From the IMG/VR virus record IMGVR_UViG_3300046449_000348, positions 1-42,441 of that record: a DNA stretch of 42,441 nucleotides; one strand, given 5' to 3'. The DNA comes from a virus. Both the position numbers and the translations under genes were made by a program. Position 1 is the first letter of the stretch. The number at the start of each line of letters is the position of its first letter. Positions 4,087 to 25,458 of this stretch are shown here, piece by piece. The notes beneath the pieces were generated by a model. It was not told where the DNA came from. It searched no databases and worked only from the letters and a program-made list of their open reading frames with translations.

Positions 4087-4120
4087 GGGGGTGTTCTCCA
4101 GTGTGTTGCGTTACACTAGA

Positions 4121-4148
4121 GTTATGGGTTTCAACCTGTGACTGTCAA
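4121..4148 (-). promoter_or_regulatory. Leftward early promoter (PL-like)
   Basis: On the minus strand a perfect TTGACA -35 (4148-4143) is followed by a 16-bp spacer and CATAAC (4126-4121), about 35 bp before the first leftward gene. The -35 directly abuts the TGCA operator array at 4149-4170. Confidence 0.65.
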
Positions 4149-4170
4149 TGCAAATTGTGCAAAAAATGCA
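4149..4170. promoter_or_regulatory. Operator array OL: three TGCA blocks at 9-bp spacing
   Basis: TGCA occurs at 4149, 4158 and 4167, each separated by five mainly A/T bases. The array touches the -35 of the leftward promoter. The same arrangement occurs at 5261-5282 beside cro, so one phage regulator probably binds both. Confidence 0.6.
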
Positions 4171-4172
4171 AA

Positions 4173-4607
4173 CTATGAGGTATCGCCGTCCGCAATGCGG
4201 CATAGTTTGAAGGCTTCCCGCAGCAACATCCCGTACAAGACGATCGGTGGGCTTGAGATAATAAGGGCGAATAGGAAGGGATCTGCATCGTCGTAGCTGC
4301 GAACGAAAACATCGCGGTACAGGCTGCTGCTAAAGCCGATGGAGATGAAGTAGCTGCACAGTGTGGTCGCTATGCAAAATATGATTAAAAAGCCAATGGG
4401 CTTTAGTGGAATAGGTCCGCGATGCTCCTCTATTCCGGCCCATTTGAAGTGCTCAATATTTGATCGAACAATGAAAATTGCTGCGCAAAAGCTGGAAATC
4501 GTAGCGCTTATTGCGGCAAAGGAGAGTGTTGCCGTCGTATCGAAAAGCAAAACTGGCATTGTTTTGAAGTAGATAAAGCAGACCGTCCAGTAGATTGCGA
4601 TTAACAT
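4173..4607 (-). CDS. Repressor-linked membrane protein, possible superinfection exclusion factor
   Basis: This 144-aa protein has four likely membrane segments (about residues 3-19, 26-48, 69-92 and 112-130) with a short polar loop between the second and third. Its ATG begins two bases before the repressor stop region ends downstream (start 4607, repressor stop 4609-4611), so both would be expressed from the lysogenic transcript. The gene is visibly more AT-rich than its neighbours (roughly 45 percent GC in sampled lines), typical of acquired accessory genes. Membrane proteins co-expressed with a prophage repressor often exclude superinfecting phage; this role is inference from position, not homology. 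Confidence 0.72.
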   Translation of the reverse strand: MLIAIYWTVCFIYFKTMPVLLFDTTATLSFAAISATISSFCAAIFIVRSNIEHFKWAGIEEHRGPIPLKPIGFLIIFCIATTLCSYFISIGFSSSLYRDVFVRSYDDADPFLFALIISSPPIVLYGMLLREAFKLCRIADGDTS

Positions 4608-4608
4608 A

Positions 4609-5223
4609 CTACGTTCTCCAAGAGGCGATTACTTTACCTTTGATCACTACGTTTTTGCCGTCAACCACGTGCACGCGTTGTTCCGATGGGGTGGTGCTGC
4701 CTGATACTAAAACTGGCGGTTCAAATCGTCGTAGCAATGTGGAAGCTATTCCTGTTTGCCAGTCGTAAATCTGTGCAAGCACAATGTCACCGGTCTTACA
4801 TGTTTCGGATTTATTTGTGTCGACTAGAAGCTTGTCGCCGATGGAGTATCCGTTCATCACCATAGATCCAGTGCGTACCCTCCAAACATCTATGCCAGGC
4901 GTTCCGCCGCCTAGCCCGGTTACGATGCCGTGCATAGCAACTTGCTCATGAGCTGACCCTTCCCACAGTGCAGCGTCACCATTCGATTGGCTTGGTTCAA
5001 GTTTCTTTGCTTCTTGAACCTCTAGTGCGCCGGCGTGTTTGAGGACCTGGTCTAGTGGAACCTTTAGCACCTCGGCGAAAGCTTTCGCCCACTCAAGGCT
5101 CATTTTTTGATGGCCATTGTATATGCGCGAGACGATTGAGCGATCACGTCCCATTTTTTGCGCAATATCTTCGGCCGTAACGCCCGCAGCTTTTTGCTTA
5201 GTTTTAAACCACTTGTCATCCAT
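4609..5223 (-). CDS. CI-like repressor: helix-turn-helix plus S24 peptidase-like domain
   Basis: This 204-aa protein is the likely lysogeny repressor. Residues 13-65 form an HTH of the XRE type (AEDIAQKMGRDRSIVSRIYNG). The C-terminal domain matches LexA/S24 folds: TGSM with Ser120, GDKLLVD, then GDIVLAQIYD. The position of the catalytic lysine (usually TVKR) reads STLLRRF at 161-167, so no lysine is present, and self-cleavage may not occur. It is divergent from the Cro-like gene with a shared 96-bp control region containing the TGCA array. The start ATG at 5223 gives a complete HTH. Confidence in the repressor role is high; the mode of induction is open. Confidence 0.9.
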   Translation of the reverse strand: MDDKWFKTKQKAAGVTAEDIAQKMGRDRSIVSRIYNGHQKMSLEWAKAFAEVLKVPLDQVLKHAGALEVQEAKKLEPSQSNGDAALWEGSAHEQVAMHGIVTGLGGGTPGIDVWRVRTGSMVMNGYSIGDKLLVDTNKSETCKTGDIVLAQIYDWQTGIASTLLRRFEPPVLVSGSTTPSEQRVHVVDGKNVVIKGKVIASWRT

Positions 5224-5251
5224 GTGTCGCTAAGTAGTAACTGGAAACTCA

Positions 5252-5285
5252 CAATGCATGTGCAATTTATGCAAAATGTGCATTG
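5252..5285. promoter_or_regulatory. Operator array OR: TGCA blocks and CAATGCA/TGCATTG inverted repeat
   Basis: TGCA occurs at 5255, 5261, 5270 and 5279; the last three are 9 bp apart as in the array at 4149-4170. The outer parts CAATGCA (5252-5258) and TGCATTG (5279-5285) are an inverted repeat. It lies in the middle of the repressor-cro intergenic region and touches a TTGCCA hexamer at 5283. Confidence 0.65.
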
Positions 5286-5311
5286 CCAAGATGTATGTTT
5301 GCGATCTACAT
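5283..5311 (+). promoter_or_regulatory. Possible rightward early promoter (PR-like)
   Basis: TTGCCA (5283-5288) sits directly after the operator, as TTGACA does at the leftward promoter. The region 16 to 18 bp on (5305-5312, TCTACATC) is only a poor -10. If used, transcription would begin very close to the cro ATG at 5320, giving a leaderless or nearly leaderless message; no ribosome site is seen before that ATG. Confidence 0.35.
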
Positions 5312-5319
5312 CTAGCGTC

Positions 5320-5607
5320 ATGAGTAGCAACCTAACACCACTTGAAGTATGCGAACGCCTCGTTGCGCCCTTGTCTCAACTTGGCAATATCGCCGGGTTG
5401 AAGGAAAAAGCCGCATATGGCTGGCGCAACGGCTCACAATGGCGCGAAGCCGGTGATTTGCCACCGCGCGTCAACCGCACCCTTCTCAAATACGCGAAGC
5501 GGCACGGGATCCCGTTGACCCCGGCCCATTTGATCTGGGGCGCAAGCCGTTCAGAGATCGATGCGCTTTTGCAAGGCATGGCGCGCCGTTCGGTGGCCGC
5601 AGAATGA
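5320..5607 (+). CDS. Cro-like DNA-binding protein
   Basis: This 95-aa protein (MSSNLTPLEVCERLVAPLSQL) is divergent from the repressor and is the first gene of the rightward early transcript, the standard position of Cro. It is predicted all-helical; residues 8-40 resemble a short helix-turn-helix that includes AGLKEKAAYGWRNG, a pattern common in YdaS/Cro-type phage regulators. It contains a cluster of basic residues (RVNRTLLKYAKRHG). The ATG at 5320 was chosen because upstream sequence is operator DNA. A hairpin follows immediately after the stop. Confidence 0.75.
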   Translation: MSSNLTPLEVCERLVAPLSQLGNIAGLKEKAAYGWRNGSQWREAGDLPPRVNRTLLKYAKRHGIPLTPAHLIWGASRSEIDALLQGMARRSVAAE

Positions 5608-12552: not shown

Positions 12553-12632
12553 ACTGATTGGAAATCAGTCGTGTTCGACAGTTTTTGTCTGGTCCCCGCG
12601 CATCGCTCGATCGGCCTCGACCCCCCGGGGGG
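12553..12632 (+). other. Intergenic inverted repeats between terminase genes
   Basis: In the 193-bp gap between the terminase genes, ACTGATT-GGA-AATCAGT (12553-12569) is a perfect 7-bp hairpin, matching 15 of 17 bases of the tRNA-Thr anticodon arm at the att site. CCCCCCGGGGGG (12621-12632) is a 12-bp perfect palindrome. Neither is followed by a T-run. They may regulate large-subunit translation or mark a packaging cut site. Confidence 0.5.
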
Positions 12633-12705
12633 CCTGCGTGCGCGGTTTCTCTATCCCCGTCCTTCCGACCCCATTCTGCCTTTTGGCCATGCCGGAGGGT
12701 TCAGA

Positions 12706-14496
12706 ATGATCGCGAAATTTGGAGATGACCAATGGGGTGGGGGGGTAGTGCTCTCTCCAGCCCATGAAGGGTCAGGGGGGAAAGGACCTCAATCGGGCGC
12801 AAAGCGTGAACTTACAGATGAAGAATTTACTGCCCTGACAGGGCAAGCGGCGAAAGAGGCAATTGACAGCCTAGAGGGCGATTTCGCCACTGGCAACCTG
12901 CCAGATGTCGACGCGGTTACTTTTCCGGGGCCTATAGCCGAAGCCTTTTATTGGTCCAACGCTGACGTCTGCGGCATCCAGGGGCCTGTCGGATCTGGTA
13001 AGACCACGACACTGATGAAATCGCGGCTGCGTCGGGCAATCGAGATGCCACGTTCCTCCGTCGATGGTGTGCGACGCTACAAGGTGCTGTTCATCCGCGA
13101 AACCTACCGTCAACTGTGGTCGACCTCGATCCCGTCGTATCTTGAGACCTTCCCTAAAGAAATGGGCAAATGGTCTGGCGGCCGCGGGGATCCCGTGACG
13201 CACATCATCCACTTCGAAGACGACCACGGACCGATCGAGTTCGTCGCTGAGTTCATGGCGTTTGGTGATGACATCGTAGCATCGATGCGCGGCGTTCAGA
13301 CCACGGACATCGTGTTGAACGAAAGCGATACGATGCCGGTCGAAATCCTGACGGTGGGCATCGGGCGGATCGATCGCTGGCCTGCGCGCCAGCATTTTGA
13401 AGGTCTGCCCGTCCATCTGCGCGGGTATGGCCAGATTGTCGGCGACTTCAACGCCCCCGACGAAGACAACTGGACGTTCGAGGTTTTCCACGACGAAGAA
13501 AAACGCAAGCTGCTGCTGGATGCGCTCGCCAGCGATCTGCCCGAGGGCGCAAAGCAGATCCAGATCCTGTTCTTCAACCAGCCCGGCTACGGTCAGGACG
13601 GCTGCGAGAACATGCAGAACCTGTCACCAACCTACTACCAGCGGCAGATCGCGACCCAGCGGCTTGCCGGGCGCGGCGATATGGTCGATCGGCTGGTTTA
13701 CAACAAGGTCACCTATCTGCGCGTCGGCGATCCGGTCTGGAAGCGTGAGTTCAATCAGCGCGTCCATGTCAGCGATACGCCGCTGTCGCTAATCCATGGT
13801 CTGCCACTGCGTATCGGCCTCGATCAGGGCTTTAAGGGGGCGGCCGTCATCGCGCAGTGCGACGAAGCGTTTCGCTGGCGCATCTATGCCGAAATGCACT
13901 TTCCCGAAGAACGGCTGATGGCGGCCGTGTTCGGGGGCCGGCTGGCAGATCTATTGGAAGGCACCCGGTTCAATGGTTACCGCGTCGAAGCGGGCTGGGG
14001 CGACATGGCCGGTGAGCACGGCGCGTCCCAGGCGGCGGATGAAAACGCGACCTGGAACCTCATGGTCGGCAAAGCAGCCGGTTTTTTCATCCGGCCCCAG
14101 CGGATTGGGACCAACCGCATCCAGCCTCGTCTGGAAGCCGTGCGCGCTGCCTTGGAAGCACCACTAACCCGAGGCGAACCCGGCCTGTTGATCGACCCGA
14201 GCTGTCGTTTCCTGATCCGTGGCTTTGCTGCCCGCTACGTCTGGACTGAAGAAATCAACAAGAGCGGCGACAAGCGCAAGGTGCCTGACAAGTCCTACAC
14301 CGAAGCCAACTTGCACGATGCGCTGCAGTACCTGCTGCTGAGCGAACACAAGGCGGATGGCACAAGCCCCTACGCCCACAAAATGCCCGACACCGATAAG
14401 CGCGGCCGCATTGGCCATAACGGAGGACCGCCCCTGTCGGGGAATGATGGTGGTCTGAAAACAGGTTGGGACATCACCGACCCCTACGGAGCCTAA
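12706..14496 (+). CDS. Terminase large subunit
   Basis: This 596-aa protein is the packaging motor that drives DNA into the prohead and cuts concatemers. Walker A is GPVGSGKTT (Lys99); the Walker B strand is DIVLNESD, with Asn in place of the usual Asp before the catalytic Glu. The C-terminal RNase H-like nuclease begins at RIGLDQGFKG and ends near NLHDALQYLLL. The ATG at 12706 has GGAGGG at proper spacing; an upstream start at 12571 would add 45 residues encoded by a palindrome-rich region and is unlikely. Size and position fit T7-type terminases. Confidence 0.92.
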   Translation: MIAKFGDDQWGGGVVLSPAHEGSGGKGPQSGAKRELTDEEFTALTGQAAKEAIDSLEGDFATGNLPDVDAVTFPGPIAEAFYWSNADVCGIQGPVGSGKTTTLMKSRLRRAIEMPRSSVDGVRRYKVLFIRETYRQLWSTSIPSYLETFPKEMGKWSGGRGDPVTHIIHFEDDHGPIEFVAEFMAFGDDIVASMRGVQTTDIVLNESDTMPVEILTVGIGRIDRWPARQHFEGLPVHLRGYGQIVGDFNAPDEDNWTFEVFHDEEKRKLLLDALASDLPEGAKQIQILFFNQPGYGQDGCENMQNLSPTYYQRQIATQRLAGRGDMVDRLVYNKVTYLRVGDPVWKREFNQRVHVSDTPLSLIHGLPLRIGLDQGFKGAAVIAQCDEAFRWRIYAEMHFPEERLMAAVFGGRLADLLEGTRFNGYRVEAGWGDMAGEHGASQAADENATWNLMVGKAAGFFIRPQRIGTNRIQPRLEAVRAALEAPLTRGEPGLLIDPSCRFLIRGFAARYVWTEEINKSGDKRKVPDKSYTEANLHDALQYLLLSEHKADGTSPYAHKMPDTDKRGRIGHNGGPPLSGNDGGLKTGWDITDPYGA

Positions 14497-14499
14497 AAC

Positions 14500-15003
14500 A
14501 TGACGCAGATCCATTACGGAACGAAACAGATCCTCGCCACGGCAATGACCCGTCAAGCCTACAACGATTACCGCGGGTGGGCTTTGCCTGCCGATGAGAA
14601 CGGGGCGGATGAGGGATACCTGGTCGAGTACGTCGACGGCGGCGCATCGAACCATCCCGATCACGCAGGCTACATCAGCTGGTCACCCAATGACGTGTTT
14701 GAACGCGCCTACAAGGCCTCAGGTCAGATGAACTTTGGCCACGCCATAGAGGCGCTTAAGGGAGGCGCAAATGTTGCCCGTGCCGGCTGGAATGGCAAAG
14801 GCATGTATCTGTGGCTTTTGCCGGCAGCGACAATCAAGGCCGAGTGGTGTCGCGAACCACACCTCAAGGCCGTCGCCGAAGCCAACGGCGGTGAGATTGA
14901 GGCTCTTGGATCAATCCGAATGATGACCGCTGACCAAAAAGTTTTGACAGGCTGGCTCGCCTCGCAAACCGACATGCTCGCAGACGACTGGCTGATCGTC
15001 TGA
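14500..15003 (+). CDS. DUF2829/Tad2-like protein, candidate anti-Thoeris factor
   Basis: This 167-aa protein has two parts. Residues 1-73 form a domain seen in other phage proteins (MTRQAYNDYRGW, DEGYLVEYVDGG, GYISWSPNDVFERAY). From residue 77 comes a DUF2829 domain: MNFGHAIEALKGGANVARAGW, then NGKGMYLWLLP, and the ending GWLASQTDMLADDW. DUF2829 proteins are known as Tad2, which bind and sequester the cyclic ADP-ribose signal of Thoeris immunity. That activity here is inferred from the family; some relatives may have other roles. The gene lies between terminase and head genes, so it would be made late unless carried into the virion or expressed from another promoter. Confidence 0.82.
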   Translation: MTQIHYGTKQILATAMTRQAYNDYRGWALPADENGADEGYLVEYVDGGASNHPDHAGYISWSPNDVFERAYKASGQMNFGHAIEALKGGANVARAGWNGKGMYLWLLPAATIKAEWCREPHLKAVAEANGGEIEALGSIRMMTADQKVLTGWLASQTDMLADDWLIV

Positions 15004-15045
15004 CATCCCAACCACATCCCTGAACCCAACTGAAAGGAAACTACT

Positions 15046-15507
15046 TTGACTGATAAAACCAAATCGAGCGTCAAGGATGACGCGAACAAAGATACCCCGA
15101 AGCCAAAGGAAGCTGCTGGAACAGACCAGGCTAATGTCCAAGCAGCGGGCGATAACAAAACATCGCAGCCTGCCAAAGACGTCGATGAAAAAGGAGCGAT
15201 CGAGACCGGTACCGGCGAAAACACCCCAACTGAAGAAGGTGACACCGTAGACGCTTCCCCTGTGACAGCCCTCGACGCCGTTAAGGTCAAGGAACTGATC
15301 GATCAGATCGAAAACGCGGGTGGGCAATCGACCATGGATCTCGCACATCGCCTTATGCAGGAGGAAGGCCTGAAACCCGTCGAAGGTGAAGCGGATGCCA
15401 AGCTAGTCACGATGGCGGGCGTTCGGTGTCGTGCCACGGATAATCCCGGCGTTACGTTGCAAAACTGGTGCAATGCCGCCCGCCGCGCTTTGCTGAAAGC
15501 TGCCTAG
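15046..15507 (+). CDS. Unknown phage protein with acidic disordered N terminus
   Basis: This 153-aa protein uses a TTG start (15046) behind AAAGGAA. Residues 1-75 are low-complexity and rich in Lys, Asp, Thr and Ala (SSVKDDANKDTPKPKEAAG), almost certainly disordered. The C-terminal 75 residues form a small domain with KVKELIDQIENAGGQSTMD and VTLQNWCNAARRALLKAA. Its site between terminase and portal genes suggests a packaging, head or host-interaction function, but none can be assigned. Confidence 0.62.
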   Translation: MTDKTKSSVKDDANKDTPKPKEAAGTDQANVQAAGDNKTSQPAKDVDEKGAIETGTGENTPTEEGDTVDASPVTALDAVKVKELIDQIENAGGQSTMDLAHRLMQEEGLKPVEGEADAKLVTMAGVRCRATDNPGVTLQNWCNAARRALLKAA

Positions 15508-15509
15508 CA

Positions 15510-16055
15510 ATGGCGCAACTACCACCCGTGCTGGCCAAACCATACAGCGATCACGCAGCGATGGCTGTGCTCTCACGGCTTGATCCTAGCGATCAGGCTG
15601 AAGCCGATCACGCGCGGGGTGAACGATCGTCACATCTGCAGCTATTTGCGGACTGGCGTGCTGTGGAGCCCGCACGGGTGGTATCGCTGGTGCTCTGTGC
15701 CGGCTCTGAAGCAGCTCCGATCCCGTTCGCGGTTCTGGGGCTGTCGAATACCGGTCAGGCAGGTGTGGCATCTGCGGCGTTGCTTGCCCGTGATCATTTC
15801 AAATTCAAGCGCCACCTGATGGCGACTTGCCTTCTGATCCGCGACCGCATGCCGCCGTTCTGCGTCGAGCACGGGATCCATCGCATCGAGGCGCGAACAT
15901 GGGGGGGGCACCCCCGCGCCAGCCTGTTTTTGCGGAGCTGCGGTTTTGCCTTTGAAACTGATTTGCACGGCCACGGCCGTGAGGGTCGCACCGTCTTTCG
16001 TCAATTCGCCTGGATCAATCCAAATATAGAACAGGACAACAGCCATGTGCATTAG
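15510..16055 (+). CDS. GNAT-like N-acetyltransferase
   Basis: This 181-aa protein has the C-terminal signature of GNAT acyltransferases: RIEARTWGGHPRASLFLRSCGF near residues 125-150, comparable with the family ending in which a GH pair precedes an LxxxGF turn. The acetyl-CoA pyrophosphate loop (Q/RxxGxG/A) is not obvious, so activity is uncertain. Similar proteins occur beside portal genes in several podoviruses. It begins at ATG 15510 after the previous stop and overlaps the next gene by 11 bases. Confidence 0.65.
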   Translation: MAQLPPVLAKPYSDHAAMAVLSRLDPSDQAEADHARGERSSHLQLFADWRAVEPARVVSLVLCAGSEAAPIPFAVLGLSNTGQAGVASAALLARDHFKFKRHLMATCLLIRDRMPPFCVEHGIHRIEARTWGGHPRASLFLRSCGFAFETDLHGHGREGRTVFRQFAWINPNIEQDNSHVH

Positions 16056-16233
16056 CCAACCTAAAATGCCTTCGATCGCGGCGCCTAAGATCGCTGCATC
16101 AGATAATCGCGAGGCCAATCAGCAAGGTGACATAGAGGCACGCTTGCGCAAACGTCGGGCCGGTGCAGCTGCCAACGTACTGACCAGTGCGATCGGGATC
16201 CCGTCCACGGGTAAACTGGGGCAATCAGCATGA
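16045..16233 (+). CDS. Small conserved phage protein upstream of portal
   Basis: This 62-aa protein (MCISQPKMPSIAAPKIAASDN) has a polar helical middle (NREANQQGDIEARLRKRRAG) and the end NVLTSAIGIPSTG. Short proteins of this shape, starting MC-P and ending ILTxxxG, are common directly before connector genes in podoviruses. An AGGA ribosome site precedes it, and the stop overlaps the portal start (ATGA at 16230). Function unknown; a minor head component is plausible. Confidence 0.6.
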   Translation: MCISQPKMPSIAAPKIAASDNREANQQGDIEARLRKRRAGAAANVLTSAIGIPSTGKLGQSA

Positions 16234-17870
16234 AACAGGATGCCGTTATAGAGAACGATCCGCGTGCGATCGAGGCAATGCGCCGCTGGGATGAGCTCAA
16301 AACCCGGCGGACGTCATTTGAGCAAGACTGGGAGGATATCGCTGCCCTTATGCGACCGCAGCGTGGTGGGTTTGGGCTTTATGATCACAAACGCCGCGAT
16401 CAAGTGAAGCCGCTGTCCAGCGACCCGAGCCTCGCACTCGGCAGCTTTGCCGCGGGCATATATTCCAGCCTGACGAACCCGGCCAATCGCTGGGGCGGGT
16501 TCGAAACGCCAGACGAAGATCTGAACAAGTGGCGTCCGATGGCAGAGTGGAACGACCATGTCACCAACCGGGTGCTTGCCAGCTTCAGTCCGGCAGTTTC
16601 TGGGTTCTACGGTGCCACATTCCAGGCCTACTCGGACCTGGCAGGCTTCGGTAATGCAGCTGGCTACGATCAGATCGACACAAAGAACCGCAAGTTCATC
16701 GATGTGACCATGTCACTGGCGGAAGTTGTCGTTGATATCGATGCGCACGGGCGTGTGGTCGAAATGGTGCGCAAGTTCACCTTAAAACCTCGCGCCGCTG
16801 TCCGCGAATATGGCGAGACGTCCTTGCCAAAAAAGATCGTAGATCTGGCCATTGATGGCAAAAGCGATGACCTGGTGTTTTTCTATCACGTCGTCGCCAA
16901 TGATCAGTTCGTTAAGGGCAAGCTCGGGCCGCGTGGTAAGCCTTGGCTGGCAGTTACAGCGTGTCAGCTTGAACGTGCGCTGGTCAAAATGGGCGGGCAT
17001 GATGACATGCCAGTTTACTATCCCCGTTGGGATGTCGACAGCGGTATGACCTATGGTACCGGGCCGGGGGTGATCGCCCTGCCGTCAGCACGTACCCATA
17101 ACCTGATGGACGCGGCGACGATCCGCGCGGCCCAACATGCGGCGGATCCCACGAAGCTGGCACCAGACCGGCAGGCCGTTCCCCTTAATGGCACCTTCCG
17201 CCCAGGTTCCGTGGTCTACGGCGGCGTCGATATGCGTGGCAATACCATGATCCGGAACATGGAACATGCCACCAATATCGGGCTCACGATGGAAGAAAAG
17301 CGCGCCAAAAGCGAAGCGGTCAAAGAGGCGTTTCACTATTCGGTCATGTCACTGGCAGGCCGGACGGGTGTCACCGAGGAAGAAACCCGCATTCAGGAAG
17401 AAGCGCGTTTGCGCAACTGGGCCCCGCATGCTGATCGGATCATGGAAGAGTACGCGGCGCGCAAGTTTGAACGCCGGTTCCGCCTGCTGTGGCGCGCAGG
17501 CCAGTTGCGGCCACCGCCCCCCGAGGCTGCAGGCCAGCCCCTGCGCGTCCGGTACCAGTCGTCGGCCGCGATGGCGATGCGTGCGCGTGAAGGTGCTGCC
17601 GTGCGCCAGTTCATCACCGACATGGGTCCACTGGCCCAGATGAACCCGCGCTATCTGGACCGTCTGGACCCTGATGCGATCAGCGAGGCGCTGCACGATG
17701 CCAGCCCATCGCTGCCCGCGCGTATCCTGCGGTCGCGGGACGATGCCGATGCGATCGCACAGGCACGTGCCGACCAGCAGGCGCAGGCGCAGCAGATGGA
17801 GATGGTGCAGCAGGCCGGGGGTGTCGCCAAGGATCTTGGCATCACGCTCGACGCAGGGGGTGCGCAATGA
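16230..17870 (+). CDS. T7-type head-tail connector (portal protein)
   Basis: This 546-aa protein matches T7 gp8 in length (536 aa) and character. It starts with a helical, Arg-rich domain (MRRWDELKTRRTSFEQDWEDI) typical of the head-tail connector family. It contains SLALGSFAAGIYSSLTNPANRW, a hallmark of podoviral portals, and ends in a Gln-rich tail (ADQQAQAQQMEMVQQAGG). It forms the dodecameric ring at one capsid vertex through which DNA is packaged and ejected and to which tail proteins attach. Overlap with the following gene (ATGA) indicates coupled translation. Confidence 0.92.
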   Translation: MKQDAVIENDPRAIEAMRRWDELKTRRTSFEQDWEDIAALMRPQRGGFGLYDHKRRDQVKPLSSDPSLALGSFAAGIYSSLTNPANRWGGFETPDEDLNKWRPMAEWNDHVTNRVLASFSPAVSGFYGATFQAYSDLAGFGNAAGYDQIDTKNRKFIDVTMSLAEVVVDIDAHGRVVEMVRKFTLKPRAAVREYGETSLPKKIVDLAIDGKSDDLVFFYHVVANDQFVKGKLGPRGKPWLAVTACQLERALVKMGGHDDMPVYYPRWDVDSGMTYGTGPGVIALPSARTHNLMDAATIRAAQHAADPTKLAPDRQAVPLNGTFRPGSVVYGGVDMRGNTMIRNMEHATNIGLTMEEKRAKSEAVKEAFHYSVMSLAGRTGVTEEETRIQEEARLRNWAPHADRIMEEYAARKFERRFRLLWRAGQLRPPPPEAAGQPLRVRYQSSAAMAMRAREGAAVRQFITDMGPLAQMNPRYLDRLDPDAISEALHDASPSLPARILRSRDDADAIAQARADQQAQAQQMEMVQQAGGVAKDLGITLDAGGAQ

Positions 17871-18211
17871 TCTGGGATCGCCTTTCCATCATCCGCAGCT
17901 TCTTCGGCCACGGCGAACCGGGCACACGGCAAGCCATCGCCCAAGACGCAGCAGCTGCAGAAGTCGCTGCCCGCTGGCGGAAGGCGTTCAGCCGCGATCC
18001 ACAGCTGGCCGAAGATCTGATCCGGCAATCGGGGCTGCTGAACCTGCAGCCCGTCGATATGGCCGATGGCTATCCCCAGCCAGCCCGGATCGACCCGCAG
18101 CGACTGGCCTATGAAGCCGGCCGCCGCGACCTAGCCCTGCTGATCCTGTCACAGGGGCATATTTCCCACCTTGAACTGAACCAACTTATGGAGAGCTTGG
18201 ATGTACGTTAA
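17867..18211 (+). CDS. Bbp19-like phage protein
   Basis: This 114-aa protein overlaps the portal stop and scaffold start. The C-terminal part (RIDPQRLAYEAGRRDLALLIL) fits the Bbp19 family of phage head-region proteins, where RxxLxxxxGxRxLxLxIL is conserved. It is helical with several Arg residues. Role unknown; its position between portal and scaffold suggests involvement in head assembly. Family assignment is by motif, made by eye. Confidence 0.62.
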   Translation: MIWDRLSIIRSFFGHGEPGTRQAIAQDAAAAEVAARWRKAFSRDPQLAEDLIRQSGLLNLQPVDMADGYPQPARIDPQRLAYEAGRRDLALLILSQGHISHLELNQLMESLDVR

Positions 18212-19217
18212 ATTTTTTCTCAAACCGCTGGTCTGTTTCGCACCAACAGATGAAGGCGCTGGCGGTGCTACTGCGGCCGGAGCTGAAGGAGCTAATACCG
18301 TAACGGGCAACGCCGGAGCCGACACGATTGAAGGCGGTGCCGGTGCAGACACGGTTGCCACTGGTGGTGGGGCCGATACGGTTACAACAGGGGCTGCCAA
18401 GTGGTGGGAAGATGCCAAATTCAATGACCATCGCGACCTGTTAGTTTCCAAAGGCCTGACCCTCGACGATAAGGACGAGGTAATCGCCCGCCTTGCCAAA
18501 GGTGAGAAGGCCGCACAAATGAAGCTGGGCAAACCGGCTGACCAGCTGCTGTCCAAGCCCGGCAAGGGGGAAAGCGTTGCTGAGTGGCTGAAGGCGAACG
18601 GATCGACCTTCGGTATCCCCGAGAGCGCCGACAAATACGACGTCCAGCGCCCGGAAAGCTGGCCGAAAGACGCGCCCTGGAATGATGCCCTCGAAGGCAA
18701 GGTGCGTGAAATCGGGCTTGCCAGCGGTATGTCAAACGATGCGGTCAACGCTATGGTCGGGCTATATGCCGAGAACATCATGGCCTTGGATAAGCAGGCG
18801 GCAGACGACTTTGAAAAGGGCAGCGCTGAAATGATGGCCGCGCTGGAAAAGGACTGGGGCGATCAGACCCAAGCCAAGCTGACCCTTGCCAGTCAGGCGG
18901 CGTCGGTCATCGCTGAGAAGGCGGGACTGGACGCGACAGCGATGGAAAACCTTGCCGCATCCCTCAAGCCCAAGATCGGCGACGCGGGCACCATGCGTGT
19001 CTTCGCTGCGATCGGCGAGATGATGGGCGATGACCAGATGGTCATGGGCGATGGTGGTGTCAGCTTAAACATGACCCCTGCAGAAGCCCGCGCAAAACTG
19101 AGCCAGCTTCAGGGCAAAGGCGGCGAATGGTACGAAGCGACGTCCAAAAAAGATCAGCAGGCCATTGCGCGTCTGAAGCCTGAGGTCGAGCGGCTGACCA
19201 AGATCGCGGCTGGCTGA
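18201..19217 (+). CDS. Capsid scaffolding protein with RTX-like repeats
   Basis: This 338-aa protein has the composition of a podoviral scaffold: acidic, helical, Met- and Lys-rich, ending in coiled-coil-like LKPEVERLTKIAAG. It sits between portal and capsid genes. It would guide capsid assembly and leave the prohead. Unusually, residues 36-62 form three consecutive nonapeptides, GNAGADTIE, GGAGADTVA and TGGGADTVT, matching the calcium-binding RTX pattern GGxGxDxUx. The core of the protein begins near residue 67 (KWWEDAKFNDHRDLLVSKG). The ATG at 18201 overlaps the previous gene by 11 bases and has GGAGAG upstream. Confidence 0.8.
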   Translation: MYVKFFLKPLVCFAPTDEGAGGATAAGAEGANTVTGNAGADTIEGGAGADTVATGGGADTVTTGAAKWWEDAKFNDHRDLLVSKGLTLDDKDEVIARLAKGEKAAQMKLGKPADQLLSKPGKGESVAEWLKANGSTFGIPESADKYDVQRPESWPKDAPWNDALEGKVREIGLASGMSNDAVNAMVGLYAENIMALDKQAADDFEKGSAEMMAALEKDWGDQTQAKLTLASQAASVIAEKAGLDATAMENLAASLKPKIGDAGTMRVFAAIGEMMGDDQMVMGDGGVSLNMTPAEARAKLSQLQGKGGEWYEATSKKDQQAIARLKPEVERLTKIAAG

Positions 19218-19234
19218 ATAAGCCAATCTAAAAT

Positions 19235-19258
19235 GGGCGGGGCGCGTGGGCCCCGTCC
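19235..19258 (+). terminator. GC-rich hairpin after scaffold gene
   Basis: Bases 19235-19243 pair with 19250-19258 (9 bp, one G-U) around a 6-base loop, core CGGGGC...GCCCCG. No T-run follows. Similar hairpins follow the capsid and head-associated genes. Confidence 0.5.
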
Positions 19259-19324
19259 GATCCCACAGGATATCAATATGACACGAACGGTCGCATGATA
19301 TCCGATCCATAAAGGCGATTAGGC

Positions 19325-19576
19325 ATGACGAAAACGATTGATATGAATATCCCCAAAGACGCGGAGGTTCGCGCCATGTGCCAAGATTTGCACAAGGTGC
19401 GCGAAGGATTGGCAGCTTTGGGTCTACAGGCCCATATTTTAGATCGCGTGTGCGACAAGCTCAAAGATTTAGCTAACGAGGTGGAGCGTGTCCGCTCTGA
19501 TCGTCAGTATACCGTCGGCCACAATGATGGCTGGGACGCAGCAATGGCAACTGGTTTGCCCGATGAACCTGAATAA
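19325..19576 (+). CDS. Small unknown protein, first of inserted cassette
   Basis: This 83-aa protein begins MTKTIDMNIPKDAEVRAMCQ and is largely helical (LHKVREGLAALGLQAHILDRV), ending in acidic DEPE. It is the first of five small genes lying between scaffold and capsid genes, a location normally empty in T7-like genomes. It overlaps nothing upstream; a gap of 107 bp containing a hairpin separates it from the scaffold. No family recognised. Confidence 0.6.
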   Translation: MTKTIDMNIPKDAEVRAMCQDLHKVREGLAALGLQAHILDRVCDKLKDLANEVERVRSDRQYTVGHNDGWDAAMATGLPDEPE

Positions 19577-19586
19577 GGAGATGCGC

Positions 19587-19820
19587 ATGCAGCCCTTAAG
19601 GATAAGCAATGCGACGCGTGTACTCGCAGAGACGCAAGATGAATACTACGCGCTGGCGATCCTCGACGAGGAAGTCGATGGCGTGCCACAAATGACATCG
19701 GTTTGGGAACCAACTCCCAAGGAGATTGAACATCTCGCCTCGGGCGGTGCAGTCCGGTTGACCATTGTCGGAACCGGTCACCCCCCAGTAAAGATCACCA
19801 CCCAACCAGCGCCGGAGTGA
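19587..19820 (+). CDS. Small unknown protein of inserted cassette
   Basis: This 77-aa protein starts MQPLRISNATRVLAETQDEY at ATG 19587, chosen because AAGGAG ends seven bases upstream; the ATG at 19581 is too close. It appears beta-rich and ends VRLTIVGTGHPPVKITTQ. The form resembles small phage proteins of unknown role. It may be translationally coupled to the next gene, six bases later. Confidence 0.58.
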   Translation: MQPLRISNATRVLAETQDEYYALAILDEEVDGVPQMTSVWEPTPKEIEHLASGGAVRLTIVGTGHPPVKITTQPAPE

Positions 19821-19826
19821 GAAAAA

Positions 19827-20111
19827 ATGACCGAAATAGCATTCAAACTTGACTGCGCCACAGTGTATCACGTTCGCCGCGACAAAGATCGGCAATCCCC
19901 CATGCAATTTCACTACAGCCTAGAACAAGGCATCGTTGCAGAGATTGAGCCAAATAAGGTTTTCGATGTCCGCGACCTACCGCAGTACACACGTGAAGCC
20001 GACCTCCCCTCAGCAATCTTAGCGGCACTAGCGGATGGCACTGTAAACTCAGTGACCGGCGAAAAAATCAATCCAGCTAACCTCGAAGGTAACGACCATG
20101 AATGGAATTGA
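19827..20111 (+). CDS. Small unknown protein of inserted cassette
   Basis: This 94-aa protein begins MTEIAFKLDCATVYHVRRDKD and is polar with two acidic patches. Codon use and base composition are more AT-rich than in the capsid genes around it, consistent with recent acquisition. The end overlaps the start of the next gene by 14 bases. No family recognised. Confidence 0.58.
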   Translation: MTEIAFKLDCATVYHVRRDKDRQSPMQFHYSLEQGIVAEIEPNKVFDVRDLPQYTREADLPSAILAALADGTVNSVTGEKINPANLEGNDHEWN

Positions 20112-20397
20112 AAGTATCACCACAGAGCGAAAGCGGCAGGTTGAAGGGGAGGGTTGGACAACCGAACATGACGACACTCACACCGACGGCGAAATGTCAG
20201 CGGCTGCGGCTGCCTACGCCTTCAGCGCTTTTATTGGCATGAGCTACCGTGCTTTTGCCGCTGAGCCTATTGGATTTTGGCCTTGGGATGTGGAATGGTG
20301 GAAACCCAAGACACCGCGCGAAGACCTTGTTCGTGCTGGTGCACTAATCGCTGCCGAAATCGACCGTCTGGACCGCATGGCAGCAAAGTCCAGCTAA
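20098..20397 (+). CDS. Conserved-looking phage protein with WPWDVEWWKP signature
   Basis: This 99-aa protein begins with ERKRQVEGEGWTTEHDDTH (from about residue 10), then an Ala-rich helix, the motif WPWDVEWWKPKTPREDL and a C-terminal helix ending EIDRLDRM. Proteins with this pattern recur in tailed phages; I recall no proven activity for them. The acidic EHDDTHTDGE cluster could bind a metal, as in MazG-type nucleotide hydrolases, but that is a guess. It is the most recognisable member of the five-gene cassette. Confidence 0.66.
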   Translation: MNGIESITTERKRQVEGEGWTTEHDDTHTDGEMSAAAAAYAFSAFIGMSYRAFAAEPIGFWPWDVEWWKPKTPREDLVRAGALIAAEIDRLDRMAAKSS

Positions 20398-20412
20398 TAC
20401 CGGAGTGATGCG

Positions 20413-20658
20413 ATGGTCGGCGGACAAATCATAGAAATAATGCCCAAAGGCGCCACGTCGGATGGCCGCGCTATTTCTCGGCTTTGGTGCGTAGACACCA
20501 ACGGTGATGAATGCGCGGTTCATGTTGTGGATGAGCCTACGATGCCAATGTTGGGCGACGCAATTTGGTGGCAGTCAGGCAAGGTCTACTGGGACAAAGA
20601 TCGGCGGGAGTTGTCGAAGATTGGATATAGCTACGACCCGCGCGCGACAGCTAAATAA
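20413..20658 (+). CDS. Small unknown protein, last of inserted cassette
   Basis: This 81-aa protein (MVGGQIIEIMPKGATSDGRA) appears to be a small beta-rich domain with several Trp (LWCVDTNGDECAVHV, AIWWQSGKVYWDKDRREL). It is followed by 219 bp of non-coding sequence that leads to the capsid gene. No family recognised. Confidence 0.58.
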   Translation: MVGGQIIEIMPKGATSDGRAISRLWCVDTNGDECAVHVVDEPTMPMLGDAIWWQSGKVYWDKDRRELSKIGYSYDPRATAK

Positions 20659-20691
20659 AAGAGACAGCTGCACCATATCTGGCGTTTTTTC

Positions 20692-20759
20692 TTGACACGC
20701 ATCCAAATATCGCGATGACATCTTTGCACGACGGGTGCCATCGCGATGCGATGTCCGTC
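20692..20759 (+). promoter_or_regulatory. Candidate capsid-gene promoter and leader hairpin
   Basis: A consensus TTGACA (20692-20697) follows a run of six T; 17 bp later only a weak -10 (ATGACA, 20715-20720) is seen. A hairpin then lies at 20730-20759, with inner stem CATCGC/GCGATG and outer GACGG/CCGTC. This could give extra transcripts and a stable 5' end for the capsid message. The promoter part is uncertain. Confidence 0.4.
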
Positions 20760-20877
20760 TGATCAGGGACAAGCCCCTGCGCCCATGCAGCGATAAGCAC
20801 AGGTCTGGTCCGGCTCCGCCCGGGTGCCCACTCCGAAATCTCACCAAGTAACGTTGATTTTTCGCAGGAGAGGGCAC

Positions 20878-21825
20878 ATGTCCTACGCGCAGCTGGTGGA
20901 AGCCCACCACAAACTTTCATACTCGAATAACGTCAAGATGGTCGCTCAGCAGGTTCAGAACCCGTTGCGCAATGCCGTGACGATGGTCCCAGCCACAGGC
21001 GAGGCGCAAGACGCCGCGGACCTGCTGGGCAAGAAGGACTACATCGAGGGTGAGGATTATTCTCGCCGTAACCCAGACAATCCGACGCTCCGCAGCCGCC
21101 GTTGGTTGGTCCGCCCGAACGTGATCGAAGATGGCGAATACGTTGACAAGGAAACCAAGTTCGATGCGGCGATGGACCCGACATCCGCGCTGGTGCGCAA
21201 CTCGGTCATGGCCGTTGAGCGTGGTGTCTTTGATCGCATTCTGGGCATTCGCAAAACCAGCTCGGGCTTTGTCGCGTCGGGCGGCGGCATCATGGGCCGT
21301 GCGATCGAAGGCAAGCGCCCTGGTGGTGCGCCGATCCCGTTGCCCGGCGCAAACTACATCGCCGCTGACCTGGACACACCCGGCACGGCTTATGGCTTGG
21401 GACTGTCCAAGATCCGCGCAGCTTGCGAAGCGATGGAGCTGGAAGACTTCGGCCTTGAGACTGACGACGAGATCTACGGTCTGATCACACCCAAGCAAAA
21501 GACCGACCTGATCAATCTGGCGGTCGAGACAGGCAAGAACCTCAACCCCTTCGAGGTGGACAATATCCGCAACGGTAAACCCGGCATGTTGCTGGGTGTG
21601 AACTGGCTGTTCTCCAACCGTGTGCCCAAAAACAGCAGCGGTCAGCGCCTGATCCCCATCTGGTCCAAGGCGAACGTTGCCGCCGGCGTCTGGCAGGATG
21701 TTGAAGGCGACATGTGGAATGATACTTCGGCAAAAAACATGCCGTACATCTACACCGACGCCTACATCGATGCCGTCCGCATCGAAGACGTTGGCGTGCG
21801 CATCATCCCCTGCGCCGAAGACTGA
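20878..21825 (+). CDS. Major capsid protein
   Basis: This 315-aa protein starts MSYAQLVEAHHKLSYSNNVK at an ATG with a strong GCAGGAG site, and has the size of podoviral capsid proteins with the HK97-type fold. It follows the scaffold (after the inserted cassette) and precedes head-tail genes. It contains DAAMDPTSALVRNSVMAVER and ends YTDAYIDAVRIEDVGVRIIP, a pattern typical of capsid C-terminal strands in this group. Assignment is by position, size and overall character. Strong translation signals and hairpins on both sides suit a highly expressed product. Confidence 0.82.
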   Translation: MSYAQLVEAHHKLSYSNNVKMVAQQVQNPLRNAVTMVPATGEAQDAADLLGKKDYIEGEDYSRRNPDNPTLRSRRWLVRPNVIEDGEYVDKETKFDAAMDPTSALVRNSVMAVERGVFDRILGIRKTSSGFVASGGGIMGRAIEGKRPGGAPIPLPGANYIAADLDTPGTAYGLGLSKIRAACEAMELEDFGLETDDEIYGLITPKQKTDLINLAVETGKNLNPFEVDNIRNGKPGMLLGVNWLFSNRVPKNSSGQRLIPIWSKANVAAGVWQDVEGDMWNDTSAKNMPYIYTDAYIDAVRIEDVGVRIIPCAED

Positions 21826-21837
21826 TCCCGATCCTAT

Positions 21838-21860
21838 ACGGGGCAGGCTCGCTGCCCCGT
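21838..21860 (+). terminator. GC-rich hairpin after capsid gene
   Basis: ACGGGGCAG (21838-21846) pairs perfectly with CTGCCCCGT (21852-21860) around loop GCTCG, 13 bp after the capsid stop. No T-run follows, so it more likely stabilises or partly attenuates the capsid message than ends transcription. Confidence 0.55.
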
Positions 21861-21893
21861 TGATCCCCGAAATTTGAAATAAGGAAATGAGAC

Positions 21894-22352
21894 ATGCCCT
21901 TGAAAAATGGCTCCTCTGATCTGATCCATGATTTCTATGACATGGATGACTATCCCGCAGATCCCGCCCAGGCACGCGGGCGGCTGATCATCGCAACGGG
22001 TACACTCACCAACGCGGCAGATGACAGCACCGGGTCGAAATATCATCTGGTTGATCTGCCATCGAGCTGCATCCTGCACTTCGACACATTCTTCGATGTC
22101 GCAGCTGATGGCTTTGCGCAAATCGTGATTGGCACCGAAACCGACACCGATGCACTGGTCGATGTCTTGAAGTCCGCCGGCAATCTGCACAGCCCGATCG
22201 CGAAAGGTGACGCGAACCATGGCAAGCGTCTTTGGGAAGTTCTCGGGCTGGCAAAAGACCCAGGCGGCAACATCGGCCTTTGGAAGCACGCCGAAGCTGA
22301 CGCCGTCGCAGCCGGCAGTATGCCGTTCCAAATTCACTACATCACCGCCTGA
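21894..22352 (+). CDS. Head-associated protein, possible decoration protein
   Basis: This 152-aa protein begins MPLKNGSSDLIHDFYDMDDY and lies directly after the capsid gene with its own ribosome site (AAGGAAA). It is beta-rich with no long helices. Podoviruses of this kind often have a capsid cement or decoration protein here, and hairpins on both sides suggest high expression. Alternative: a minor head-completion protein. Homology not recognised. Confidence 0.62.
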   Translation: MPLKNGSSDLIHDFYDMDDYPADPAQARGRLIIATGTLTNAADDSTGSKYHLVDLPSSCILHFDTFFDVAADGFAQIVIGTETDTDALVDVLKSAGNLHSPIAKGDANHGKRLWEVLGLAKDPGGNIGLWKHAEADAVAAGSMPFQIHYITA

Positions 22353-22372
22353 TCCAGACTGTGTGACATTCG

Positions 22373-22396
22373 GCGGGGCAGTGATGATTGCCCCGC
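22373..22396 (+). terminator. GC-rich hairpin after head-associated gene
   Basis: GCGGGGCA (22373-22380) pairs with TGCCCCGC (22389-22396) around an 8-base loop, 20 bp after the stop. It is the third intercistronic hairpin with the CGGGGC...GCCCCG core, followed by TCGTTTCC. Confidence 0.55.
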
Positions 22397-22417
22397 TCGT
22401 TTCCTAAAGAGGCACTC

Positions 22418-23014
22418 ATGGCCACACCCACCGCAACAGCAAGCATTGTTCGGCAAGCCTTTCGTTTTATGGAAGTGACGCCACCGAGTTCGGTAGCGGA
22501 CAGCTCGGATGCAGCCAGCGATGCAAATGAGCAATATCCCATCGCCCTGAATATGTGCCTGGAACAGGAAGACTTCAGCTTTGCCCGCCGTTTTGCCAAG
22601 CTTCAACTGGCGAACACGCCGGAAGGTGAACGTGCCGATCCCGAGATGCCGTTTTTTTACCCGCTGCCGGATGATCTGCTGAAACTGCGAAGTGTTACGC
22701 CCAAAGATACTAACTGGCGCATCGATGGACGGTATCTGCTGGCTGACAGCAACGGTGGTATCAGCATCCGCTACACGAAGGTGATCGACCAAGAAGCGCG
22801 ACTGCCTGCAACGTTTCAAACTGCCGTCAGCTATCAGCTGGCTAATCTTTTGGCCCCCACATACGTCGGATCCCGTACCAAACGCGCGGATCTCGTCACA
22901 GACGGTGCGAATGCCCTGCGCATGGTGATCGACAATGACGCAGTGTCAGCAAGCGCTTTCCGCTGGGATGGCCAGCCTCATCAAGGTGATTGGGCTAGCG
23001 AGGCCACCCGGTGA
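22418..23014 (+). CDS. T7 gp11-like tail tubular protein A
   Basis: This 198-aa protein has the length of T7 gp11 (196 aa) and its features: a helical N terminus (ASIVRQAFRFMEVTPPSS), NEQYPIALNMCLEQEDFSFA, and FFYPLPDDLLKLRSVTP, a characteristic stretch of this family. It forms the gatekeeper ring between portal and nozzle. The start at 22418 has AAAGAGG upstream. Its stop overlaps the next gene's start (GTGA). Confidence 0.85.
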   Translation: MATPTATASIVRQAFRFMEVTPPSSVADSSDAASDANEQYPIALNMCLEQEDFSFARRFAKLQLANTPEGERADPEMPFFYPLPDDLLKLRSVTPKDTNWRIDGRYLLADSNGGISIRYTKVIDQEARLPATFQTAVSYQLANLLAPTYVGSRTKRADLVTDGANALRMVIDNDAVSASAFRWDGQPHQGDWASEATR

Positions 23015-25458
23015 CCATGTCTCGCACCCCACAGTATTCATTTTCGAGCGGCGAAATCTCACCGCTACTGTGGTCGCGTCCCGACTATCAGCGCAACCAG
23101 ACCGGCCTGCGTAAACTGAATGGATATATCCCGCTGCGCCAAGGCGGTTTCACGCGCGCACCCGGAACGATTTTCCGAGGCTATACCTGTAACAATGCCA
23201 AAGCGCGGCTTATCGACTTTGAATTTGCCGAAAACGATGCGCTGACACTGGAGTTCACCGCTCTGCGCATGCGCGTTTGGCGCTATGGCGTCTTGGTCAA
23301 AAGTGGTGGGGTCCCATACGAGCTCAACACGCCCTACGACGAGGCTGCCTTAGATAAACTCCAATGGGTACAGTCGGCGGACGTCATCTATATTTGCGAT
23401 GGCACGCAGCCTATTCAGAAGCTGTCACGCTTTGCATTGGATAATTGGACGATCTCAGCGCTGCAATTGGATGCTGGTCCGTTTCGTATCCAAAATCTTG
23501 ATGAAGAAAAGACCATCCAGTGCTCAGATATTTACGGGGCAATCACTGTATGGACTGCAAATGAAAGTCTTGCCGTCGGCGACGTGCGCAAGCGTGGACC
23601 CCGGGTCTATGAGTTCAAGGGTAACGGGCTATTCAATAGCCCAGGCTCATGTGGTCCCAATCCTCCGATCCATGATGACGGAGAGCAAGGTTATTCGTGG
23701 GAGGCCGGTCCAGATGAAACGGTAACGTCTTATTGGCTGTATCTCTATACGACCCCCGCCACCGGCACGATCGACCTCAGCTCGAACGTTGAGTTGTTTA
23801 CGACTAATCATGTCGGAACACTTTTTCGACTGGAGCCGACAGATCTGCAAAATATCCCGTTGTGGACTGGCAATACCGATATCGGGATTGGCGATCAGAT
23901 GCGGTACGGTGGTAACATTTACGAGCTGACAGCCGGGGACAACACAGGTGTAAACCCACCAGTTCACGAGGAAGGGGAACAGCTCCTCAACAAGTCCGAA
24001 GGCACTAAATGGCGCTTTGTGAGCGATTTGGTCGGCGTCGTGCGTATCAAAACGGTGACAGACGGGTATTCTGCGACAGCTGATGTGCTGAGCGAAATAC
24101 CAAGCCCGGTGATCGACGAGCCAACCTATCGGTGGTCCGAGGGCGCATGGTCTGAAATCTACGGCTATCCCAAAAGCATCGAGATCTATGACCAGAGCCT
24201 GTTCGCCGCGTTTACCCCAACTGACCCGCGCGGAGTTTGGGCGTCTACGCTTGGAGACTTTCAGGATTTTGAACCAAGCGTAGAGGCCGATGGATCGTTC
24301 TCCTACACGATCTCAGGCAGCGATAGTCAAAACTCTGGAACTTGGCTGCGCCGCGCGCGCCGCGGCATCTTTATTGGTGCCTTGGGCGAGGTCATCCGGG
24401 GCTTTTCCAACGCGAGCGGTCAGCGCATCGGACCAACAACATTTGACACGTCCGTTGAGGCAACCGACGGATCGCGCCCGATCCGTCCGATCAACCCTTA
24501 TGGCTATCCTGTGTTCGTCACGAAAGACGGCACGCGCATTGAGGAAATCCGTTACAGTTTTGAAGAGGACGGGGGTAAACCGGTCGAGCTCTCTTTGCCG
24601 TCTCAGCATCTTGGTGCCCCGGGGTTTGAAGAATTGGCGTGGCAGTCAGCACCGCAGCGCCTCGCATGGATCCGTCGAGGCAACGGTGATCTGGCCGTCA
24701 TGCTGTACGATCCTGAAGAACAGGTTCTTGGTTGGGCGCGCTGTTCAGTGGCGGGCGGTTTCGTCGAAGCCGTGTCGGTTTCAACAAGCGCTGATAGCAA
24801 AAGCGATATTCTGACTATGGTCGTACGCCGCGTGATTGATGGCGCGACTGTACGGATGATCGAAGAGCAGGCGGTGGTGTTTGGAATTATCGCAGGTGAC
24901 CAGCCTATCAGTGATGCGATCCATTTCTTTTCTGTCAGCCAGTTCCAGCCGGAAACCCCCAGCAAGACGTTTTCTGTTCCGCATCTGGTCGGCCAGAAGG
25001 TCTATGCTTGGACAGAAGCGGGACAGTTCGGCCCCTTTGTCGTTCCTTCTTCAGGCGAAGTGACATTGGATAGTGCTGTATCCAAGGCGTCGATCGGTCT
25101 GTTTGACACTGAGCATGAAGCAGAATTGCTGGATATTCCCGCACCGGCACGGGATGGATCCTCTATCGGCCGCAAAAAAAAGCTGCATGCCGGATCAGGC
25201 ATTGTCCTTTTGAAGACCGCAGCCGGCCACGTCCAGTCAGTTGAGCGTAATTTTAAACAGCAACCTCGATACGGCCGGTTTCAAGAATTGGTCCCGCAGC
25301 AAATCGCATCGGAAATCGTGACAGCATACGATGGCACCGCGCGCCTAGATACAACGTCTGGGTTTGCCGACGAAGTGTCCCTGAGGTTCACCCCTGATGG
25401 GGGTGCCCCCATGACGATCGGCGCGATCATTCCGAACATTGAGGAGGCGAACGCCTGA
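23011..25458 (+). CDS. T7 gp12-like tail tubular protein B (nozzle)
   Basis: This 815-aa protein compares with T7 gp12 (794 aa). The start SRTPQYSFSSGEISPLLWSR followed by DYQRNQTGLRKLNGYIPLRQGGF is the hallmark of this family, which builds the tail nozzle. The middle has Trp-rich segments (WSEIYGYPKSIEIYDQSLF) and the C-terminal part repeats beta motifs. GTG 23011 overlaps the previous stop; ATG 23017 is an equally plausible start. It completes the T7-like neck and tail. Confidence 0.88.
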   Translation: MTMSRTPQYSFSSGEISPLLWSRPDYQRNQTGLRKLNGYIPLRQGGFTRAPGTIFRGYTCNNAKARLIDFEFAENDALTLEFTALRMRVWRYGVLVKSGGVPYELNTPYDEAALDKLQWVQSADVIYICDGTQPIQKLSRFALDNWTISALQLDAGPFRIQNLDEEKTIQCSDIYGAITVWTANESLAVGDVRKRGPRVYEFKGNGLFNSPGSCGPNPPIHDDGEQGYSWEAGPDETVTSYWLYLYTTPATGTIDLSSNVELFTTNHVGTLFRLEPTDLQNIPLWTGNTDIGIGDQMRYGGNIYELTAGDNTGVNPPVHEEGEQLLNKSEGTKWRFVSDLVGVVRIKTVTDGYSATADVLSEIPSPVIDEPTYRWSEGAWSEIYGYPKSIEIYDQSLFAAFTPTDPRGVWASTLGDFQDFEPSVEADGSFSYTISGSDSQNSGTWLRRARRGIFIGALGEVIRGFSNASGQRIGPTTFDTSVEATDGSRPIRPINPYGYPVFVTKDGTRIEEIRYSFEEDGGKPVELSLPSQHLGAPGFEELAWQSAPQRLAWIRRGNGDLAVMLYDPEEQVLGWARCSVAGGFVEAVSVSTSADSKSDILTMVVRRVIDGATVRMIEEQAVVFGIIAGDQPISDAIHFFSVSQFQPETPSKTFSVPHLVGQKVYAWTEAGQFGPFVVPSSGEVTLDSAVSKASIGLFDTEHEAELLDIPAPARDGSSIGRKKKLHAGSGIVLLKTAAGHVQSVERNFKQQPRYGRFQELVPQQIASEIVTAYDGTARLDTTSGFADEVSLRFTPDGGAPMTIGAIIPNIEEANA

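Follow-up and report, generated by a model that had tools for sequence, protein, structure and literature searches.

The window analysed here is the entire virus record IMGVR_UViG_3300046449_000348, 42,441 nucleotides long, so that a motif found to be unique in it is unique record-wide. Its genes and control elements between positions 4119 and 5607 would form an immunity region in the order PL/OL, accessory gene, cI, PRM/OR/PR and cro-like gene, as follows.

4119-4124, minus strand: PL -10, TAACTC, 18-bp spacer; family consensus CCTAACT
4127-4136: GGTTTCAACC, a GT-N4-AC dyad in the PL spacer, candidate site of a second, presumably Cro-like, regulator
4143-4148, minus strand: PL -35, a perfect TTGACA, in the logo of 35 OL
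4149-4170, minus strand: OL array, TGCA boxes at 4149-4152 (box 3, contacts the -35), 4158-4161 (box 2) and 4167-4170 (box 1)
4173-4607, minus strand: 144-aa ORF between OL and the repressor gene, no clear family match, in the position of lambda rexAB
4176-4179, minus strand: OL fourth half-site, CTCA on the minus strand (TGAG on the plus strand), 9 bp past box 1
4609-5223, minus strand: repressor gene, 204 aa, XRE HTH and LexA/CI-like C-terminal domain, proposed ligand of both arrays
5231-5236, minus strand: PRM -10, TACTTA (logo TACTT), transcript probably leaderless with a putative start site
5234-5241: GTAGTAAC, GT-N4-AC over the PRM -10, candidate second-regulator site that overlaps promoter letters
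5248-5251, plus strand: OR fourth half-site, CTCA (complement TGAG, letters as in OL), 13 bp from box 1
5255-5260, minus strand: PRM -35 position, CATGCA, adjoining box 1, from the PRM logo
5261-5282, plus strand: OR array, TGCA boxes at 5261-5264 (box 1), 5270-5273 (box 2) and 5279-5282 (box 3, contacts the PR -35)
5283-5288, plus strand: PR -35, TTGCCA; in most relatives the cro-like ATG follows 37 bp later
5307-5312, plus strand: PR -10, TACATC, 18 bp after TTGCCA, transcript probably leaderless with a putative start site
5320-5607, plus strand: Cro-like gene, 95 aa, which opens the rightward operon; fold predicted to be helical

The 144-aa ORF is apparently of a membrane type, and relatives have other ORFs at the same place. 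Further along the window (12571-25458), the terminase and tail proteins have only distant, podovirus-like matches; BcepC6B, which we take to be a podovirus, is among the best-covering ones at 24-32% identity.

An earlier note, made from the letters alone, had placed TGCA at 4149/4158/4167 and at 5261/5270/5279 in steps of 9 bp and had each array adjoin a -35 hexamer with zero spacing. Both observations are correct: the left array runs on the minus strand directly into TTGACA (4148-4143) and the right array on the plus strand into TTGCCA (5283-5288). The pattern TGCA-N5-TGCA-N5-TGCA is present twice in the 42,441 bases and in none of 100 dinucleotide shuffles, and the scan of the whole record that the note had proposed found no copy beyond these two sites. 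The two-box pattern TGCA-N5-TGCA has 5 matches, 4 of them within the arrays, where 1.46 are expected. One additional TGCA, at 5255-5258, is out of the 9-bp register and lies within the presumed PRM -35. Since TGCA is its own complement, each neighbouring pair of boxes is already a dyad, and a direct repeat looks the same as an inverted one in this phage alone.

In the closest relatives, L003 and L004, the repressor is 98-100% identical to that of the window, all TGCA are in register and the letters between the boxes vary. More distant relatives, with repressors about 41-62% identical to the window's, were drawn from viral contigs and from genomes in the same family and order as a Rhodobacteraceae genome. 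Left out before anchoring were L016, which has no switch region alongside, the duplicates L021, L030, L042 and L046, and the truncated L050; L001, L002, L007-L011, L015, L018, L019 and L051 were also left out, because they duplicate loci in the set, are fragments of them or are matches without a repressor. This gave 36 distinct phages with 35 OL and 35 OR, L038 lacking OL and L017 lacking OR. OL was anchored by the PL -35, by hand in L045, L013 and L017; for OR the anchor was the TTG that precedes the cro-like start by 37 bp. In the permutation statistics and all later analyses L003, L004 and the window count as one phage. L025, whose OR was wrongly anchored, was excluded from the covariation and from the helix-based box prediction, and only the OR and PRM logos omit the six ORs of L017, L025, L034, L036, L040 and L054; the box-matching permutation tests still include wrongly anchored ORs. 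Some phages (L036, L044, L054 and L006) fit the ladder described below poorly in OL or OR, partly because the automatic anchor is off.

In OL and OR alike, the boxes of the 36 phages lie at -22, -13 and -4 relative to the -35. Their letters vary by phage (TGCC/GGCA, TCAG/CTGA, TTCG/CGAA) and their orientation alternates, as in the OR of L033, TGCC-gaatt-GGCA-aaata-TGCC|TTGCGC, and in the OL of L023, CTGA-tattt-TCAG-tctgg-CTGA-aattt-TCAG|TTGACA. Thus, of the conservation that the earlier note had asked about, the 9-bp geometry is kept in relatives and the TGCA letters are not. Its view that the arrays are regulatory and belong to the two early promoters gains support from this conservation and from their uniqueness in the record. 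As a control, the boxes of each phage were paired with the boxes of other phages, which preserves composition and position. Inverted matching between the boxes at -22 and -13 was 3.09 of 4 letters within phages and 1.83 between phages in OL, and 2.69 and 1.50 in OR; between -13 and -4 it was 2.83 against 1.77 in OL and 2.51 against 1.53 in OR (0/20000 permutations in each of these tests). An open register scan over offsets also ranked the combination of -22 and 9 bp at the top. Direct matching of adjacent boxes, the expectation for a direct-repeat operator, was close to the between-phage control in all but one of six tests; only the OL boxes at -13 and -4 came out slightly above it (1.14 against 0.85, 165/20000), and the direct-repeat operator was rejected. 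The claim that the arrays differ from classic dyad operators is thus mistaken, because the relatives carry inverted half-sites. The boxes of OL and OR in the same phage match at 2.6-2.8 of 4 letters and those of different phages at 1.5-1.8 (0/20000); the two operators share one repressor specificity, as in a lambda-type switch.

A scan with each phage's own half-site profile over offsets -42 to +37 outside the three boxes, in 34 phages, revealed one additional outward-facing half-site per operator, at -31 in OL (z 5.7) and at -34 in OR (z 5.6), with the runner-up at 2.9. In the permutation test the OL half-site gave 1/20000, and the 13-bp version of the OR half-site was weaker at 408/20000. 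The family ladder is therefore < > < > at 9-9-9 bp in OL and < > < > at 12-9-9 bp in OR. In the window the fourth half-sites lie on the far side of the arrays and are weaker than the TGCA boxes (TGAG against TGCA), and that of OR stands at 13 bp from box 1, where the family position is 12 bp. The PRM -35 fits between box 1 and the fourth half-site of OR, which stand 3-4 bp further apart than in OL.

The repressor matches Pfam HTH_31/HTH_3 above the cut-off and, over residues 10-203, phrog_4 (transcriptional repressor); tblastn against 50,697 phage records gave no match. Its HTH folds like those of the 434 and lambda repressors and its C-domain like LexA, lambda CI and UmuD, so that it has the HTH and LexA/S24-like C-domain of the CI-like repressor of a lambda-type lysogeny switch. 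In the AlphaFold model, helix 3 spans residues 28-35 and the N-domain superposes on the 434 repressor (model 1-63 on chain 1-62, Z 8.4). In 33 phages the box letters track repressor residues 26-39 (partial Mantel 0.46, 0/2000), and their association with the repressor C-domain is marginal, at most weak (0.15, 82/2000). Residues 27 and 30 go with box column 2 and less with column 3, residue 33 with columns 2-4 and residue 36 with column 4. Repressors with Asp27/Val30/Arg33 go mostly with TGTG or TGTA, those with Asp27/Val30/Lys33 with TGCC and those with Ala27/Asn30/His33 with TCAG; the repressor of the window has Asp27/Ile30/Arg33 and its boxes are TGCA. When the boxes of each phage were predicted from residues 27, 29, 30, 33 and 36 of the others, 2.57 of 4 letters were correct against 1.65, and the prediction was above average in 31 of 33 phages; restricted to neighbours less than 60% identical, it was 2.47 against 1.61, again in 31 of 33. 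A promoter-pattern scan blind to the repressor gave 18 stretches, four of them on contigs outside the earlier locus set. Among these, L062 (TCAG) and L068 (TGCG/TGCC) have new repressors and the boxes that their helix class predicts, L077 has the boxes and repressor type of L054, and L075 has no readable repressor and a ladder apparently shifted by one base. These results show that the box letters depend on helix 3 of the repressor, and the arrays are very probably docking sites of the phage's own lysogeny repressor.

Which pair of half-sites forms the dyad is a matter of polarity. In the 434 and lambda repressors the N-terminal part of helix 3 reads the outer bases of a half-site and the C-terminal part reads the inner ones. 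Combined with the residue-column association above, this geometry would put column 4 inside and make the central pair (> N5 <) the canonical dyad and the outer boxes extra half-sites. The outward pairs (< N5 >) had been our first choice, given the conserved A/T letters, near AAATT, between boxes 2 and 3, until the residue-column association reversed it. Boxes 0/1 and 2/3 would then be two tandem 13-bp operators 18 bp apart, reminiscent of lambda OL1/OL2, with the central pair only the gap between them, and boxes 2 and 3 are indeed well matched (2.83 in OL, 2.51 in OR). We consider this arrangement unlikely, though a serious rival, because the best-matched pair is the central one, the helix geometry favours the central pair and OR boxes 0/1 are separated by 12 bp and not by 9.

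The promoter logos were built from 35 OL and from 30 of the 35 OR. That of PL is TTGACAGT...CCTAACT; that of PR is TTGC followed about 18 bp on by CTAnATcT, with the ATG 37 bp past the -35; and that of PRM has a weak CATTtA-like -35 beside box 1, an 18-bp spacer, TACTT and the repressor ATG a few bases later. Judging from this pattern, which is kept in relatives, both divergent transcripts, cI and cro-like, are probably leaderless and start at or beside the ATG. In several phages of the Lys33 class (L032, L033, L043, L048 and L049) an extra pair like CGCA-N5-TGCG was seen by eye between the PR -35 and -10.

We have good confidence that the arrays serve as OL and OR in a lysogeny switch of the lambda kind, each a ladder of four half-sites that the phage's own S24/LexA-type repressor would bind. 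In each operator the 4-bp half-sites, four in all, would alternate in orientation; the inner two (> N5 <, 13 bp) would form the canonical HTH dyad, and the outer two would be filled by further repressor subunits. Adjacent HTH units at 9-bp steps may clash, so that the four half-sites may not all be filled at once. As the promoter-proximal box contacts the -35, bound repressor would exclude sigma from PL and PR and keep the lytic genes silent. The putative PRM start is about 43 bp downstream of the central OR dyad (centre 5267), which lies beside the weak -35, and lambda CI activates PRM from OR2 at a comparable distance from the start; autoactivation is therefore expected. The absence of a strong -35 from PRM could also point to weak basal expression or to an establishment promoter. 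The fourth OR half-site, just past the PRM -35, would close PRM at a high repressor level, giving autorepression. A more specific version of this switch, which we put forward tentatively as possible rather than probable, is that the repressor acts as one tetramer whose heads, on flexible linkers, read the four alternating half-sites, with pairings that compete through shared half-sites. The 3-bp shift in OR that makes room for the PRM -35 would give autoactivation and then shut-off with both lytic promoters closed, and the code in residues 27, 30, 33 and 36 would generate numerous immunity groups while the promoter framework stays constant.

A loop of about 1.1 kb between OL and OR, held by a repressor octamer, could instead be the main purpose of the twin arrays. 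The gene order is lambda-like and the C-domain matches the octamer-forming domain of lambda CI (1kca, Z 12.0). The distance between OL and OR ranges from 750 to 1626 bp with no common helical phase (Rayleigh R 0.14-0.27, n=34), which at such lengths is compatible with either outcome, and looping as the main purpose seems rather doubtful to us.

The Cro-like protein is a far weaker candidate for the ligand. The first rightward protein is homologous across relatives and would have the Cro function; it has no match in Pfam or PHROG and only weak fold matches to solved HTH structures (best E 0.53). Lambda Cro and CI share operators, and the earlier note had held the two regulators equally eligible. 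The covariation with helix 3 bears out the S24 repressor as the probable ligand but not the Cro-like protein as its equal, because in the same 33 phages, with the repressor helix taken into account, the box letters do not track the similarity of the Cro-like proteins (partial Mantel -0.10, 1856/2000). A better candidate site for the Cro-like protein is GT-N4-AC, a dyad that lies within the PL spacer and again across the PRM -10. GT-N4-AC is found in 28 of 34 PL spacers and in 24 of 34 repressor-start regions, against a background of 3.6% of random 24-nt windows, and in a listing of the PL spacers its letters are common to phages whose repressors belong to different classes. The copy at PRM shares letters with the -10 and is therefore weaker evidence. 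GT-N4-AC may thus be the site of the Cro-like protein (5320-5607), which is most improbable as the main ligand of the boxes; that it shares the TGCA boxes at a lower affinity is another alternative.

Least credible of all is that the arrays activate the early promoters through the repressor or another protein contacting sigma at the -35. In favour of this, the centre of the pair beside PR falls about 44 bp before the presumed start, where class II activators bind, and the PR -10 departs widely from consensus. Against it, the same array stands at PL, whose -35 is a perfect TTGACA, the form of the PR -10 is normal for the family, and a lysogeny repressor that turned on both lytic promoters would defeat lysogeny. 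The earlier note had called the rightward -10 poor, and TACATC is indeed far from consensus, but it is not special among the CTAnATcT of relatives and loses its force as a sign of activation.

How the switch is induced may differ from lambda. At the positions that we take to be the S24 active-site columns, Ser120 is Ser in 6 of 31 repressors, that of the window included, and position 165, that of the catalytic lysine, is Arg in 31 of 31. By residues alone, the Ser and Lys pair of SOS self-cleavage is incomplete. With Arg at the Lys position and Ser mostly absent, this repressor family is probably not SOS-cleavable, and induction may need another route.

The likeness to the lambda and 434 immunity regions extends to the leftward promoter and operator, the accessory gene, the repressor, the divergent PRM and PR around an operator and the cro-like gene. 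As in a lambda-type switch, the repressor and cro-like genes diverge from an operator between them and a second operator lies at the leftward promoter; one repressor with a 434/lambda-like HTH and a LexA/CI-like C-domain would serve both, and the central OR dyad stands at an OR2-like distance from PRM. In lambda, each operator site is a 17-bp dyad of its own, set off from the next by a short gap and sharing no half-site with it. Here, in place of separate full dyads, 4-bp half-sites alternate uniformly every 9 bp and one half-site can serve two dyads. Rhizobium phage 16-3, a temperate phage of an alphaproteobacterium, reportedly also has a 434-like repressor, C, which is said to tolerate operators of different spacing; its operators are reportedly ACAA/TTGT dyads with 4- or 6-bp spacers, unlike the 9-bp ladder here, and we know of no alternating ladder in it. 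In eukaryotes, p53 response elements are four short elements of alternating orientation read by a tetramer, a similar arrangement with an unrelated fold, the tetramer being only proposed here. Shared half-sites in overlapping operators are also a feature of CodY; overlapping CodY sites share a central half-site to which two dimers bind cooperatively, the protein is a winged-HTH/GAF protein with both recognition helices of the dimer in one major groove, and the site is 24 nt long with little base specificity (PMC10415144). The fold is unrelated, the repressor here being an XRE HTH with a LexA-like domain and not a winged-HTH/GAF protein. The portions consulted of papers on 933W, GIL01, Acinetobacter UmuDAb and a Sulfitobacter prophage give other operator layouts or none, and no description of the alternating 9-bp half-site layout was found in the open-licence papers searched.

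Alternating half-sites that are shared between dyads are an operator layout absent from the classic switch models. In this family of Rhodobacteraceae-type phages the promoters and their spacing are constant and the operator letters and the repressor helix co-vary, which makes the family a natural experiment on how an HTH reads DNA and on how new immunity groups arise. On the sequence comparisons made here, the family very probably displays a natural protein-to-DNA recognition code in an unusual layout of four half-sites.
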